Origin: an uncultured beta proteobacterium
GTDB lineage: Bacteria > Pseudomonadota > Gammaproteobacteria > Burkholderiales > Burkholderiaceae_C
Reading direction: 5' to 3'
DNA: 11,962 bases
Assembly (NCBI GenBank): GCA_903920405.1
Contig: CAIXMC010000369.1
Span: forward strand, 1-11,962
Positions 1 to 10,354 of this stretch are shown here, piece after piece. Below the pieces are notes generated by a model. That model saw only the letters and a list, made by a program, of their open reading frames with translations, did not search any database and had not been told where the DNA came from. The position numbers and the translations under genes were made by a program. Numbering within the stretch: position 1 is the stretch's first letter; the number at the start of each line of letters is the position of its first letter.

Positions 1-668
1 GTCAGTCCATTCGCATCATTCCGATGGGGTTTGGCATCGCCTCGACCATGGATCAGCGCTACACCATGATCCAGATTACTGATGTAACGCACTCTGTGCT
101 GCGTGAGCGTTTACTCAAGGCGCAAGCAAGCAAGTTGCAGGGAATAGCCAATCTGGATGTACTCACGGGATTGGGCAACCGTCGGGAGCTAGATGAAAAG
201 TTGGCTCAGGAACTGCGTTTGGCCACCCGGGAAAATTCTACCTTGGCTCTTGTGATGTTTGACATTGATTATTTTAAACAATTCAACGATTTATATGGTC
301 ATTTGGCAGGTGACGAGTGTTTGCGGCGCGTGGCAGACACTCTGCGCGAGGTCTGTCGTAGGCCACAAGATGTGGTGGCGCGGTTTGGCGGTGAAGAAAT
401 CGTTGTCATTTTGCCTAAAACAGATCGCGCAGGGGCCATGCAGGTTGCCAATGAAGCTTTGCAACAGGTTCGTCATTTGCCCATTCCCCATGCGGGTAGC
501 ATGGTCTCGGATGTACTGACCTTGAGCGCCGGAGTTGCCGTGAGTGATCCTGCCCATGCGCTCACGCCCAAAGCCTTGCTGGAGTTGGCCGATCGAGCAC
601 TTTATGCTGCCAAGGCAAGTGGTCGCAACAGAGTTTGTGTTGACAACGCCCAAAATCTTGCCGAGTGA
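1..668 (+). CDS. Diguanylate cyclase (PAS-GGDEF), 5'-truncated by window edge
   Basis: The product makes cyclic di-GMP from two GTP. The frame is open from base 3 with no stop upstream, so the gene starts outside the window and the ATG at 24 is probably internal. Counting from that ATG, residues 1-35 look like the end of a PAS sensor domain (IQITDVTHSVLRER), followed by a linker and a GGDEF domain from about residue 43 (LDVLTGLGNRREL). The catalytic motif is GGEEI at 122-126, a common active variant of GGEEF. The metal-binding stretch DIDYFKQFNDLYGH begins at 80. An inhibitory I-site RxxD is present as RPQD at 113-116, exactly five residues before the GGEE, so feedback inhibition by cyclic di-GMP is likely. 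The domain ends normally (ADRALYAAKASGRNRV). The signal it senses and its partners are not visible. Confidence 0.93.
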   Translation, partial: QSIRIIPMGFGIASTMDQRYTMIQITDVTHSVLRERLLKAQASKLQGIANLDVLTGLGNRRELDEKLAQELRLATRENSTLALVMFDIDYFKQFNDLYGHLAGDECLRRVADTLREVCRRPQDVVARFGGEEIVVILPKTDRAGAMQVANEALQQVRHLPIPHAGSMVSDVLTLSAGVAVSDPAHALTPKALLELADRALYAAKASGRNRVCVDNAQNLAE

Positions 669-729
669 CGTTATTTGGCCTGGTTCTGCGCTGCCTGTCA
701 TCCCCGTATTTTTTTTATATCTGTATTCC

Positions 730-1434
730 ATGTCTATTTTTCTGCCTGTTATCGTCACGTTTTTTGCTTATTTGGTAGGTTCTTTGTCGTTTGCAGTGAT
801 GGTCAGTCGCTGGATGGGCTTGAGTGATCCTCGCACCTTTGGCAGCCAAAACCCAGGGGCAACCAATGTGTTGCGAACAGGCTCCAAGGCTGCTGCCGTT
901 CTCACGCTGGCACTGGATGTCACCAAGGGTTGGTTGCCGGTGGAACTGGTTAAGTGGCTGGGGCCGTCTTATGGCTTGGGTGATGGCACGGTGGCACTGG
1001 TGGGGTTGGCGGTATTTTTGGGACATGTCTATCCCGTTTTTTTTCGGTTTGCTGGTGGAAAAGGGGTGGCGACAGCCTTGGGGGTTTTGTTGGGCACGAG
1101 CGTATGGCTAGGTGTGGCAGCGGTACTGATTTGGGTGGTCATGGCGTTGGTGTTTCGTTATTCGTCTCTGGCCGCTGTCTGTTCTGCCGTGTTGGCACCG
1201 ATGGTTTATGTGTTGGGGGATGGAGAGTTGTGGATCAGGAACAAGAGCGTGACGCTTGGCATTGCTGTGATGGCACTTTTTTTGCTGTACCGTCATGCCC
1301 CCAACATCAACCGTCTGATTTTGGGGACTGAATCTTGCATCGGCAAAAAAGTCACATCCCCTGCCAAACCGTCACATCACAGACCTCATCGTGAACACAA
1401 GCCCCATTCCAATCACTCTGGCGATGCACCATGA
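730..1434 (+). CDS. plsY: Glycerol-3-phosphate acyltransferase PlsY
   Basis: Integral membrane enzyme that moves the acyl group of acyl-phosphate (made by PlsX) onto glycerol-3-phosphate to give lysophosphatidic acid, the first step of phospholipid synthesis. The 234-residue protein has about five hydrophobic segments and the family motifs: GSQNPGATNVLRTG at 38-51, DVTKG at 63-67, GHVYPVFFRFAGGKGVATALG (98-118) in the cytosolic loop, and RHAPNINRLILGTE at 188-201. I chose the ATG at 730 because the N-terminal membrane segment starts there. An in-frame ATG at 544 would overlap the GGDEF gene and add a non-hydrophobic leader unlike the family. No clear Shine-Dalgarno is seen. The protein is about 30 residues longer than usual because of a His/Pro-rich tail after residue 204. 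Its stop overlaps the next start (ATGA), suggesting coupled translation. Confidence 0.95.
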   Translation: MSIFLPVIVTFFAYLVGSLSFAVMVSRWMGLSDPRTFGSQNPGATNVLRTGSKAAAVLTLALDVTKGWLPVELVKWLGPSYGLGDGTVALVGLAVFLGHVYPVFFRFAGGKGVATALGVLLGTSVWLGVAAVLIWVVMALVFRYSSLAAVCSAVLAPMVYVLGDGELWIRNKSVTLGIAVMALFLLYRHAPNINRLILGTESCIGKKVTSPAKPSHHRPHREHKPHSNHSGDAP

Positions 1435-2183
1435 AACTCTGCATTCTTGAAAACGACGACATTGACCCTGATATTGCTCCAACGTATATTGGCTATGGTG
1501 CCATGTTTGATCGCCTGCTGCGCCATGCAGGTGCCACAGGGCAGTTTGATATTTTCAACACATTTCATGGCCAATATCCCGATTCTTTTGACGATTTTGA
1601 TGCTGTGCTTCTTACTGGCAGCCGTGCGGATTCCTTTTCTGAAGAGCCTTGGATACGCAAGCTGCGCCATACTGTCTTGCAACTGTTGCACACTCCAAAA
1701 AAAATCATCGGCGTGTGCTTTGGTCACCAATTGGTGGCCATGTGTTTGGGGGCACGTGTGGGCAGGGCGCCGCAGGGTTGGGGTGTGGGGCGCTTGCAAT
1801 ACCAGTGGCTGGCAACCGATATGTCACCTGGACGTACCCAAATAGCCCTGTTGGCCAGTCATCAGGATCAGGTGTTTGATCTGCCTGCGGGAGCACGACG
1901 ATTGGCCACCAGCGATTTTTACCCGGTGGCAGCTTTTGCACTTCAAGACCGTGTGCTTTGTGTCCAGGCGAATCCCGAGTTTGTTGAAGATTACAGCGCT
2001 TATTTGTTGAACAAACGCCGATCTGTTCTGGACGAAGCGCTTTACACATTGAGCATGCACAGCCTGGCATTAGGTATGCACCACTTATTATTACTCCCAA
2101 AAATCATGGCGACTTGTCAAAAAATCAATCAGTTGCGATGTGTTTTTGGAGCAACAATAAGTGGGACATCCCTTAGGCCATGA
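1431..2183 (+). CDS. Class I glutamine amidotransferase-like protein, C-terminus replaced by a small insertion; probably decaying
   Basis: This is a class I glutamine amidotransferase fold of the stand-alone, GMP-synthase-like type. The nucleophile elbow is GVCFGHQ with Cys96. Other landmarks are LLTGSRADSF near 61-70 and SHQDQV at 143-148. The usual Q-x-HPE motif that supplies the catalytic His and Glu reads QANPEF at 179-184, so the expected His is Asn181 while Glu183 is kept. Family-like sequence stops at Gly215. The last 35 residues are encoded by a palindromic insertion (2073-2172) that shifts the frame and ends at a TGA at 2181. Without the insertion the frame runs on to 2241 and gives a 235-residue protein. 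The start overlaps plsY by 4 bp, so expression probably depends on plsY translation. The substrate is unknown. A missing catalytic residue plus a broken C-terminus suggests loss of glutaminase function. Confidence 0.85.
   Translation: MKLCILENDDIDPDIAPTYIGYGAMFDRLLRHAGATGQFDIFNTFHGQYPDSFDDFDAVLLTGSRADSFSEEPWIRKLRHTVLQLLHTPKKIIGVCFGHQLVAMCLGARVGRAPQGWGVGRLQYQWLATDMSPGRTQIALLASHQDQVFDLPAGARRLATSDFYPVAAFALQDRVLCVQANPEFVEDYSAYLLNKRRSVLDEALYTLSMHSLALGMHHLLLLPKIMATCQKINQLRCVFGATISGTSLRP
2073..2172. mobile_element. Element A: ~100-bp palindromic MITE-like insertion inside the amidotransferase gene
   Basis: The sequence is flanked by direct repeats TTAGG at 2070-2074 and 2173-2177. The junction can be read as a 3-bp TTA duplication with ends starting GG, or as a 5-bp TTAGG duplication. 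The left arm from ATG at 2076 and the complement of the right arm from CAT at 2169 match in 18 of 22 positions, including CCACTTATT and CTCC. Further inside, CATGGCGACT (2105-2114) pairs with AGTTGCGATG (2131-2140) at 8 of 10 positions. Nearly the whole element can therefore fold into one hairpin. It carries no transposase, so a parent element would have to supply that in trans. I cannot assign an insertion-sequence family. Confidence 0.8.
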
Positions 2184-2241
2184 AGGTGATGTCATGGCAC
2201 GTATCATCGTCTCTTTTGTCAATGCGCCAAAGCCAGTCTGA
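2173..2241 (+). pseudogene. Severed native C-terminus of the glutamine amidotransferase
   Basis: In the +1 frame relative to the upstream gene, codons from 2173 read LGHEGDVMARIIVSFVNAPKPV and then TGA at 2239-2241. This resembles the final helix of YfeJ-like amidotransferases (family knowledge). Joining it to the codon TTA at 2070-2072, by deleting 103 bp, gives SMHSLALGHEGDVMARIIV without any frame correction. It therefore reads as the original 3' end, cut off by the insertion. It has no start or ribosome site of its own and should not be translated. Confidence 0.75.
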
Positions 2242-2383: not shown

Positions 2384-3568
2384 ATGACCAATACCCCCAT
2401 GACTGCCATGACACCGGAAGTCAACAGTGTGCATGCACCTGAAAAGTCCACCATTTTGGTGATTGACGACACCGAAAGCTACCTGTATTTAATGCAAAGC
2501 ATTTTGTCAGATAGTTACCACGTCCAGCTTGCCAGCAGTGGTTTGCAGGGGCTGGAGATAGCCAATGCCTTTGACTCCCCTGATTTGATATTGCTGGACA
2601 TTTTGATGCCGACAATGGATGGCTATGAGGTCTGTCGCCAACTCAAAGCCAATGTCCACACGCATGATATTCCTGTTATTTTTTTAACTGCCAAATCTGC
2701 CGAAGACGACGAGAAGTTTGGGTTGGAATTGGGGGCGGTCGATTACATCACCAAGCCCATCAGCCCTGCCATTGTGTTGGCACGTTTGCGCACCCAACTC
2801 GCACTCAAGGCAGCAACTGATTTCTTGCGAGATCAAAATTCCTTTTTGGCGCATGAAGTGACCGAGCACACCCGCGAAGTGAGTGCCATTGAAGACGTTA
2901 CCATTTTGGCCATGGCCTCGCTGGCCGAAACCCGCGACTCCGACACTGGAAATCACATTCAGCGCACCCAGCGCTATGTCAAGGCGCTGGCATGGAAGCT
3001 CGCAACACACCCACGATTTTCAGAATTTTTAAGTGCGCAGACAATAGGTTTGTTGTTCAAATCAGTACCATTGCATGATATTGGCAAGGTAGGGATTCCT
3101 GATCGCATTTTGCTCAAACCCGGCAAACTCACACACGAAGAGTTTGAGATCATGAAAACCCACACCACCTTGGGGCGCGATGCGATAGCGCACGCAGAAC
3201 ACATGCTGGGATGCGAAGTGGCGTTTTTGAAAATTGCCAAGGAGATCGCTTATTCTCACCAGGAAAAATGGGATGGTACCGGCTACCCACAGGGCATTAA
3301 GGGCGATCAAATCCCGATCTCGGCGCGCCTGATGGCCTTGGCTGATGTGTATGACGCACTGATCAATCGGCGCACCTACAAAGAGCCTATGTCCCATGCA
3401 GAGGCCGTCAATATCATTGTCCAAGCCAGTGGACGGCATTTTGATCCAGACGTGGTCGACGCATTTATGGCCTTGCAAGACAATTTCCAATTCATTGCCA
3501 TGAGTTTCACCGACTCAGCAGAAGACCTTCAAATGAAAAGAAATTACATGGCCATTGCCAACATGTGA
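2384..3568 (+). CDS. Response regulator with HD-GYP cyclic-di-GMP phosphodiesterase domain (RpfG-like architecture)
   Basis: Cytoplasmic two-component output protein that hydrolyses cyclic di-GMP when its receiver domain is phosphorylated. The receiver domain (about 22-140) has the acidic pair Asp28-Asp29, phospho-acceptor Asp72 (LILLDILMPTMDGYEV), Thr102 and Lys124. After a helical linker (about 140-170), the HD-GYP domain holds HDIGKVGIPD at 231-240 and HQEKWDGTGYP at 292-302, so both the HD pair and the GYP motif are intact and activity is expected. ALADVYDALINRRTYK follows at about 318-333. The 394-residue length fits REC-HD-GYP proteins. In-frame ATGs at 2399 and 2408 are alternative starts; none has a good Shine-Dalgarno. 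No cognate kinase is adjacent; the hybrid kinase at the far end of the window is on the other strand. Element B lies directly upstream and may supply the promoter. Confidence 0.94.
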   Translation: MTNTPMTAMTPEVNSVHAPEKSTILVIDDTESYLYLMQSILSDSYHVQLASSGLQGLEIANAFDSPDLILLDILMPTMDGYEVCRQLKANVHTHDIPVIFLTAKSAEDDEKFGLELGAVDYITKPISPAIVLARLRTQLALKAATDFLRDQNSFLAHEVTEHTREVSAIEDVTILAMASLAETRDSDTGNHIQRTQRYVKALAWKLATHPRFSEFLSAQTIGLLFKSVPLHDIGKVGIPDRILLKPGKLTHEEFEIMKTHTTLGRDAIAHAEHMLGCEVAFLKIAKEIAYSHQEKWDGTGYPQGIKGDQIPISARLMALADVYDALINRRTYKEPMSHAEAVNIIVQASGRHFDPDVVDAFMALQDNFQFIAMSFTDSAEDLQMKRNYMAIANM

Positions 3569-3591
3569 CCGTTATAACCGGGTGTGTAATG

Positions 3592-3607
3592 CTTTCAGCC
3601 GTGAAAG
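3592..3607. terminator. Weak hairpin between convergent genes
   Basis: CTTTCA and TGAAAG form a perfect 6-bp stem with a 4-nt loop, 24 bp after the HD-GYP stop codon. There is no following T-tract and the stem is AT-rich, so a terminator role is only suggested by its position. Confidence 0.2.
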
Positions 3608-3657
3608 TTGGTCATCCAGTTCCAGCATGCGGTGAGATGAGAGAACGATGCCATCGA

Positions 3658-3697
3658 GTGCGTTTCAAAGTGATGTGGTGCAATACAAAAACCAAAT
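3658..3697 (+). repeat. Solo 40-nt end of element C, 18 bp past the gltD stop
   Basis: This stretch, starting GTGCGTTTCAAAGTGATGTG, matches the reverse complement of 10166-10205 at 39 of 40 positions. That interval is the right end of element C beyond its central hairpin. No matching second end is found here, so this is a truncated copy or the relic of an excision. GGTGCAA (3677-3683) and TTGCACC (3707-3713) form a further 7-bp inverted repeat around the break point. The copy is inverted relative to the one beyond gltB, so gltBD lies between inverted repeats. Confidence 0.85.
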
Positions 3698-3715
3698 TCC
3701 ATGGTGTTGCACCCC

Positions 3716-5182
3716 TCACCGCGGCAATTCACTTCCCCCCATTAAAAACGCATCCACCGCCCGTGCCGACTGTCGCCCCTCGCGAATCGCCCAGACCACC
3801 AGACTTTGACCCCTGCGCATATCTCCCGCTGCAAATACTTTGGGCACATTGGTCGCATAACCCCCAACAGCATCCGTACTGGCCAGCGCATTGCATCTTG
3901 AATCTTTCACTACTCCAAATCCATCCAGGACAGATGCAACTGGATTCACAAAGCCCATCGCCAGCAAAACCATATCAGCGGGGTAGAGTTTCTCGGTGCC
4001 TGCAACTTCTTGCATCTTGCCGTCCTTGAACACCACACGAACGGTTTTCAACCCCGTCAAACGGCCTTTTTCGCCGATAAATTCCTGTGTGGAAATGGCG
4101 AATTCGCGCACACAGCCTTCATCGTGACTGGAACTGGTGCGCAGTTTCAAAGGCCAATCGGGCCAGGTGAGGGGGCGGTTTTCTTCGATGGGGGGTTGGG
4201 GCATGACTTCAAATTGGGTGACGCTCGCAGCTCCCTGACGGTTGCTGGTGCCGACGCAGTCTGAACCCGTGTCGCCGCCGCCAATGACAATGACGTGTTT
4301 GCCGTCGGCTCGCAACTGGCCTTTGAGTTTGTCGCCGGCATTGACCTTGTTTTGCTGGGGCAAAAATTCCATGGCAAAGTGAATGCCTTCCAGATTGCGG
4401 CCTGGCACGCTCAGGTCTCTCGACTGCTCTGCGCCACCGGTGAGCAACACTGCGTCATAGTCTTGTTGCAAAAAGACAGGTGAAATCGTCTCTTTAGACC
4501 AGTTGGTCACTTTACATCCCTTTTGCAGAGTGCCGACCAGGATGCCGGTGCGAACCGTGACACCTTCGGCCTTGAGTTGTTCTATTCTGCGGTCAATGTG
4601 GGATTTGTCGAGTTTGAAATCGGGAATGCCATAGCGCAACAGACCACCTGCGCGGTCGTTTTTCTCGTACAGGGTGACGTCATGCCCTGCGCGAGCCAGT
4701 TGTTGGGCGGCGGCCATGCCGGCAGGGCCTGCACCCACAATGGCCACCCGTTTGCCGGTTTTGTGTTGGGGCGGTTGGGGCGTGACCCAGCCTTGCTCCC
4801 AGGCGTGGTCAATGATGGCATGTTCGATGGACTTGATGCCTACTGGCAATTGGTTGATGTTCAGTGTGCAGGCGGCTTCGCAAGGGGCGGGGCAGATGCG
4901 GCCTGTGAATTCTGGGAAATTGTTGGTACTGTGCAGTACGTCGATGGCGTTTTTCCAGTCGCTGCGATAGACCAGATCGTTAAAGTCTGGAATGATGTTA
5001 TTGACCGGACAGCCGTTGGTGCAAAACGGGATGCCACAGTCCATGCAGCGGGCAGCCTGTTGTTTGGCCTGTGCATCGTCCAATCCAATGACAAATTCCT
5101 GGTAATGTTTTAAGCGATCAAGGACGGGGGTGTAGCCCTCTTCGATGCGTTCAATTTCCATGAATCCTGTTGTTTTTCCCAT
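3716..5182 (-). CDS. gltD: Glutamate synthase (NADPH) small subunit
   Basis: The beta subunit takes electrons from NADPH through FAD and passes them over iron-sulfur clusters to GltB, which makes glutamate from 2-oxoglutarate and glutamine-derived ammonia. The 488-residue product is close to the family length (472 in E. coli). The N-terminal ferredoxin-like domain has cysteines 46, 49, 54, 58 ([13 protein letters not shown]) and 97, 101, 105 (CPAPCEAAC) for two 4Fe-4S clusters. GAGPAG at 150-155 begins the FAD fold, and GGGDTG at 301-306 marks the NADPH site. The C-terminus is complete ([14 protein letters not shown], then SELPR). It lies 138 bp after gltB on the same strand, in the usual gltB-gltD order, with repeat D in the gap. 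A good ribosome site precedes the ATG. The gene is intact. Confidence 0.97.
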
Positions 5183-10205: not shown

Positions 10206-10231
10206 CTAGGCCACACTGCGCGATTTGCGCC

Positions 10232-10334
10232 TATAGACTTTCAGATAAATAACTTCCACTTTTTTATAGAAAATGTCTTTAACATCAGCACGTTACTTTA
10301 GACTACTTGGAAACTATTTATCTGAAAGTCTATA
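10232..10334 (+). mobile_element. Element B copy 2: 103-bp MITE with 27-bp terminal inverted repeats
   Basis: Length, orientation and both ends are identical to copy 1 at 2249-2351; the 14 differences are all in the central 45 bp. The flanks are unrelated to those of copy 1 apart from a shared CC just before the left end. It ends 64 bp from the kinase stop codon. Its right end would give TTGGAA-18-TATAGC, a poorer promoter match than copy 1, pointing toward the kinase gene in antisense. Confidence 0.88.
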
Positions 10335-10354
10335 GCATTGCATCTTTAACTCTA

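Follow-up and report, generated by a model that had tools for sequence, protein, structure and literature searches.

A 100-bp palindromic MITE, probably mobilised by an IS5-type transposase, at a TTA site in a probably decaying amidotransferase gene of a Rhodoferax-like bacterium

The interrupted amidotransferase gene and its empty site

The window, a stretch of 11,962 bp from the draft genome of an uncultured beta proteobacterium, carries a class-I glutamine amidotransferase gene that is cut near its 3′ end by a palindromic element, with a second, different palindrome following shortly behind. The features on which the analysis rests are listed here with the evidence for each.

1431–2069, + strand: class-I glutamine amidotransferase gene before the insertion, 213 codons (PF00117; NF004212 below its cut-off)
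1920–1922, + strand: codon 164, encoding Tyr in place of the Cys found in the 120 listed homologues (homologue alignment)
1971–1973, + strand: codon 181, encoding Asn in place of the His found in the 120 listed homologues (homologue alignment; PDB chain alignment)
2070–2072, + strand: left copy of the 3-bp target duplication, TTA (repeats in other copies; single TTA in the L041 empty site)
2070–2183, + strand: new C-terminal end of the interrupted frame, mostly element-encoded, with its stop codon (ORF 1431–2183)
2073–2172, + strand: 100-bp palindromic non-autonomous element (MITE) with ends GG...CC (copy comparison in the own and the sister genome)
2173–2175, + strand: right copy of the target duplication, TTA (L041 empty site and copy comparison)
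2173–2241, + strand: original gene end (LGHEGDVMARIIVSFVNAPKPV with its stop codon), cut off and no longer in frame (matches the L041 C terminus)
2249–2351, no strand assigned: second palindromic element, unrelated to the 100-bp one, with TA at both ends (inverted arms; absent from L041)
About 10226–10338, no strand assigned: the other copy of the second element in the window (repeat search of the own genome)

The interrupted frame encodes 250 residues, of which residues 55–185 match PF00117 (E 2.1e-7). Its best NCBIfam match, to NF004212 (PRK05665 amidotransferase), reaches 280 bits against a cut-off of 309, the corresponding score for L041 being 306.5 bits, and 2084 homologues are found at E <= 0.001. 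When one genome per species was scanned for relatives of the first 213 residues, 31 loci were returned. The nearest of these, L041, comes from a MAG of the uncultured beta proteobacterium isolate Loclat_bin-01332; its protein is 93% identical over these 213 residues, and the two loci run collinear from window position 1 as far as the HD-GYP gene. Since many of the next-nearest loci carry the name Rhodoferax, we label the source Rhodoferax-like. The own genome holds one other relative of the protein, a weak one (30% identity); the draft, about 90% complete, thus showed no close intact duplicate of the gene. Upstream of the gene, window positions 18–909 and L041 positions 2915–3805 share 892 bp that are identical save for one base in a T run, while the sequence beyond this tract (910–1430) has 37 mismatches and is about 7% diverged; either a recent recombination between lineages or a chimeric bin could account for the tract.

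Comparison with L041 reveals the empty site. The aligned DNA reads ...AGCCTGGCA TTAGGTATGC...CATCCC TTAGGCCATGAAGG... in the window and ...AGCCTGGCA TTAGGCCACGAAGG... in L041, so that one TTA in L041 faces two in the window with 100 bp between them. The initial annotation had predicted this site from the window itself, and the L041 junction, GCA-TTAGGCC, agrees with the prediction to the base. Likewise, deletion of 2070–2172 restores the frame as had been anticipated, giving a protein of 235 residues that ends in SMHSLALGHEGDVMARIIVSFVNAPKPV and matches SMHSLALGHEGDAMARIIVSFINAPKQV of L041. A tail motif, G[HQ][DE]G, is present there in 16 of the 17 relatives whose C termini were examined (17 of the 31 loci; L064 has DHDG). 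Of the 120 best-listed among the 2084 homologues, 113 have it in their final 60 residues; it is lost in the window gene. None of the relatives examined at the C terminus (17 of 31 loci) carries the 100 bp at this locus as conserved coding sequence.

Because the element and one copy of the duplication together measure 103 bp (1 mod 3), the insertion shifts the frame, and the replacement of 20 original residues by 35 new ones had been correctly worked out beforehand. The residues LG after SMHSLA are common to both forms; of the last 37 residues, all but this LG are unlike those of relatives, and the new stop codon (2181–2183) lies just past the element.

Structure, copies and range of the two elements

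The sequence around the insertion forms an imperfect palindrome (2065–2180), the inverted arms of which, 2065–2114 and 2131–2180, are 76% complementary. In the core of 100 bp, 34 of 50 positions can pair with their mirror position, compared with a maximum of 24 in 10,000 shuffles, and when folded as RNA the palindrome gives a long hairpin of -36.9 kcal/mol (z -5.6) that none of 200 shuffled sequences equalled. Arms, shuffle test and RNA folding thus agree that the palindromic element of about 100 bp reported to cut the gene is real. The span originally given for it, 2070–2241, runs on to the original end of the gene; 2073–2172 is the part occupied by the element. Its ends are GGTATGCACC/GGGATGTCCC. 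Two of the three forward frames of the core are open and all three reverse frames are closed; the longest frame inside it encodes 33 residues, and the element holds no transposase gene. A search of the window against the curated RNA families of Rfam at gathering scores returned no matches. A length below 500 bp, the lack of a transposase gene and the terminal inverted repeats are properties of a MITE, as are two further features seen when copies are compared, namely a target site duplication of fixed length and numerous copies, dispersed and sharing constant boundaries.

The own genome (2.68 Mb in 458 contigs) gave 20 match rows. Twelve are near-full-length copies, 97–100% identical, so the search for further copies that the initial annotation had suggested yields 11 more elsewhere in this genome; the remaining rows comprise two truncated copies (90 and 95%) and six weaker, short end-like matches. 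The sister genome, that of L041, holds nine copies at 88–98% identity (28 rows, many of them the same copies read on the other strand); it is present under two handles, G060 and G106, with identical contigs and coordinates. Setting 23 copies from both genomes side by side left 18 with both ends and both flanks, the other five having an altered or missing end (L012, L013, L014 and L083) or being cut by a contig end (L078), for which reason they were omitted from the target-site count. Three copies, L007, L077 and L078, lie at contig ends.

Identical 3-bp repeats flank 16 of the 18 complete copies (TTA in 12, TAA in four), although these two trimers together make up 1.25% of the trimers in the window, which defines the element as 100 bp with ends GG...CC and a 3-bp TWA duplication. 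The flanks are unequal in two copies, L008 (TAA/TTG) and L009 (TTG/TAA), and we count these against the preferred explanation. They are reciprocal, as would fit recombination between two copies, or coincidence. Whether the duplication measured 3 or 5 bp had been left ambiguous by the initial annotation. The 3-bp length stands, and the 5-base duplication TTAGG is rejected: the bases 3′ of the right TTA or TAA vary among copies, and the GG that follows the right-hand TTA belongs to the host, being present in the L041 empty site too. The flanks of the copies differ from one another, although other repeats are common to some of them, as on the right side of L007 and L008. With the empty site, the other copies and the constant boundaries, the earlier explanation by insertion of a non-autonomous element is well supported.

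A further repeat, resembling GGCCACACTGCGCGATTTGCGCC, is found repeatedly around copies of the element in the two genomes (L092 at about 1540–1640; left flanks of L024 and L026). For the single end-like matches L015, L016, L017, L019 and L020, an origin as termini of a longer parent collapsed at contig ends was weighed and dropped, since by eye their inner sequences are dissimilar and have no recognisable transposase frame.

Several copies lie beside or inside other genes: L003 at a Tn3-type transposase gene (PF01526 in the upstream piece), L081 at a type I restriction specificity gene (PF01420 in the downstream piece) and L082 at an RHS-repeat gene (PF05593). Three of the six flanking pieces searched (L081 upstream, L003 downstream and L077) had no Pfam match. 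Judging from these matches, interruption of the three genes is likely, and it would suggest that the element has broken genes repeatedly.

The range of the element was explored with the 25-base end pattern used for the searches of the own and the sister genome. With up to two mismatches, four of 89 genus genomes (own included) contain it: the own genome, the sister genome (G106), G064 with one decayed copy and G073 with one chance-like match. With up to one mismatch, the own genome is the single match among 399 family genomes (own included), and at the DNA level the whole element likewise matched the own genome alone among 60 (own included), G106 lying outside both samples. The exact end pattern was absent from viral contigs and the whole element from plasmid records. 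Given so few matching genomes and such high identity between copies, the element family appears narrow and recent.

A parent insertion sequence with the same ends, for which the initial annotation had also proposed a search, was not found in the own, sister, genus or family genomes, the viral contigs or the plasmid records. The own and the sister genome each have one PF01609 locus; PF13359 is absent from the own genome and present once, with other ends, in the sister genome; PF13586 occurs in neither. The 17-base end of the element was not found at up to three mismatches in the three transposase loci, the one match at four mismatches, in L157, being chance-like; these loci span 2–3 kb each, and L158 and L159 lie at or near contig ends, so the far end could be missing. 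L159 (about 1021–2197, sister genome) holds a DDE_Tnp_4 transposase gene surrounded, by eye, by ends like TAG.C.TTATTGGAAACCTA. As parent of the 100-bp element it was rejected for these different ends, which lie at the end of the stretch examined. High-copy elements are often missing from draft bins, and the absence of a parent is for this reason weak evidence.

TTA or TAA occurs in all 16 matching pairs, as a 3-bp TNA duplication requires, and IS1031-group members of the IS5 family prefer a TNA target, at which they generate 3-bp repeats, according to the available part of PMC12016507. PIF/Harbinger elements, eukaryotic relatives of IS5, use TWA, while the bacterial IS5 elements compared in the accessible portion of the same source have ANT and not TNA (PMC4482050), which counts against a simple assignment. 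Judged from target-site type alone, a transposase of the IS5 (IS1031-like) group is most likely to have mobilised the element.

The second palindromic element has 27-bp ends (TATAGACTTTCAGATAAATA...) that are 93% complementary, and is found at eight places in the own genome, one of them partial. The copy at 2249–2351 starts just behind the original stop codon and is absent at the same place in L041, which also lacks 14 or so further bases there, making this second empty site less clean than the first. Another copy (L024) sits in a repeat that is found without the element in L092, and comparison of the two by eye suggests that the second element duplicates TA. A TA duplication would fit movement of the IS630/mariner type. 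The simplest reading of the locus is that two different MITEs inserted within 180 bp after the split from L041. A remnant in a third genome, G064 (L141, about 1498–1617), has one end of the second element fused with an arm of the 100-bp element; by eye, both have CCACTT at the joint.

State of the interrupted gene

The PF00117 domain ends upstream of the insertion, so that the insertion alone may be tolerated. Two substitutions, C164Y and H181N, are private to the interrupted gene and passed unnoticed in the initial annotation. Both residues are invariant in the 29 relatives that could be aligned (29/29, of 31 loci) and are Cys and His in all 120 best-listed of the 2084 homologues. From its position we take H181 to be the catalytic His, in the HPE motif of a Cys-His-Glu triad. 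Of 55 near-invariant columns the window departs at three, namely these two and D201, at the last of which one of the 29 relatives also departs and L041 too has D. Two aligned chains of gamma-glutamyl peptidase 1 differ at the same position, with NPEY in 9k7l and HPEY in 9k7i as the sole difference in the stretch shown; we suspect that this reflects an engineered variant.

Loss of the catalytic His and of the invariant Cys makes the gene most likely a decaying pseudogene, and from sequence we would expect that enzyme activity has probably been lost. The whole-gene dN/dS against L041 is 0.146, compared with 0.20 for the neighbouring plsY and 0.197 for the HD-GYP gene, and the raised value that was looked for in this comparison was not found. 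Most of the divergence therefore predates any decay, and the decay, if real, is recent and rests on the two substitutions. The two altered codons may represent a consensus error in the draft genome. L041 also has an unusual residue of its own, G114, where 17 of 17 others aligned have P. A different view would make the gene a non-catalytic pseudoenzyme with an element-made tail, the insertion and the losses of Cys and His being linked steps of changed function rather than decay; we regard this as highly improbable.

Origin of the insertion and comparison with known elements

It is very probable that the locus records insertion of a MITE, likely IS5-mobilised, at TTA in an amidotransferase gene that is probably decaying. 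On this account the 100-bp MITE would have been moved in trans by a transposase that acts on its inverted GG...CC termini and leaves 3-bp duplications at TWA sites. Insertion at a TTA in the 3′ part of the gene, most simply once the L041 lineage had branched off, would have added 103 bp and exchanged the conserved last 20 residues for 35 others; the gene would also have lost its presumed catalytic His (H181N) and the invariant Cys (C164Y), before or after this event.

Among alternative origins, the first to be weighed is that the palindrome is a coding one of the type of the Rickettsia palindromic elements (RPEs), a selfish peptide insert kept as a functional C-terminal extension. The fused frame does read through the element, two of the three forward frames of the core being open, and a 149-residue public protein, the only one found among two candidates, carries the same peptide near its start at 94% identity; RPEs are often in-frame inserts, as far as the accessible part of PMC10969869 describes them. 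However, the 103-bp gain shifts the frame, and the downstream protein is not preserved as it is with RPEs; moreover, the reverse frames are all closed and the interrupted enzyme has lost its catalytic His. We give this origin even less credence than the pseudoenzyme. A REP-type or regulatory hairpin, spread by recombination rather than transposition, would account for the strong fold and for the failure to find a transposase partner, yet the element shows the hallmarks of transposition, with boundaries constant at 100 bp, target duplications of 3 bp and a clean empty site, and such a hairpin seems to us more doubtful again. Least credible of all is an assembly chimera hiding an intact gene in the living genome: the draft is in 458 contigs, some copies lie at contig ends and the near-identical tract adjoins diverged sequence, but the sequence on either side of the junction is collinear with L041, the identical TTA repeats would have to be a coincidence, and chimeras formed at repeats usually bring together flanks of unrelated sequence.

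Insertion of a MITE therefore remains the reading that we carry forward. As far as we have searched, the MITE family is new, though of a well-known kind, and we found no literature on MITEs in Rhodoferax. With it, a Rhodoferax-like lineage gains a MITE family of clear limits, for which the empty site is exact and the 3-bp TWA rule settled, and the 97–100% identity between copies, together with the absence of both insertions from the same place in the sister lineage, points to recent activity. The general effect is modest, gene interruption by MITEs being well documented (PMC10969869, in the part available).

One close likeness is to MITEs derived from the IS5 family (IS1031 group), with which the 100-bp element shares a duplication that fits 3-bp TNA, inverted repeats starting with G, a lack of coding capacity and high identity between copies. 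It differs in that no parent was found here, in that its ends are unlike those of the example in the available part of PMC12016507, and in that only TTA and TAA occur among the 16 matching pairs. A further resemblance is to the Tourist-like MITEs (PIF/Harbinger) of eukaryotes, which likewise duplicate a TWA target, as stated in the accessible text of PMC4482050. In contrast to these, the host here is bacterial, and PF13359 is absent from the own genome and represented in the sister genome by one locus with other ends. Tourist-like MITEs also have GG...CC ends, as the 100-bp element does. Correia elements of Neisseria, at about 100–150 bp, are of comparable size and are set apart by description, having other ends and a TA target duplication. 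They too occur in many copies and interrupt genes in a strain-dependent manner (PMC10969869, available part). From the same partial source, Rickettsia palindromic elements resemble the 100-bp element in being palindromic, lying inside genes and having open frames; many of them, however, keep the frame of the host gene, whereas the 100-bp element shifts it.
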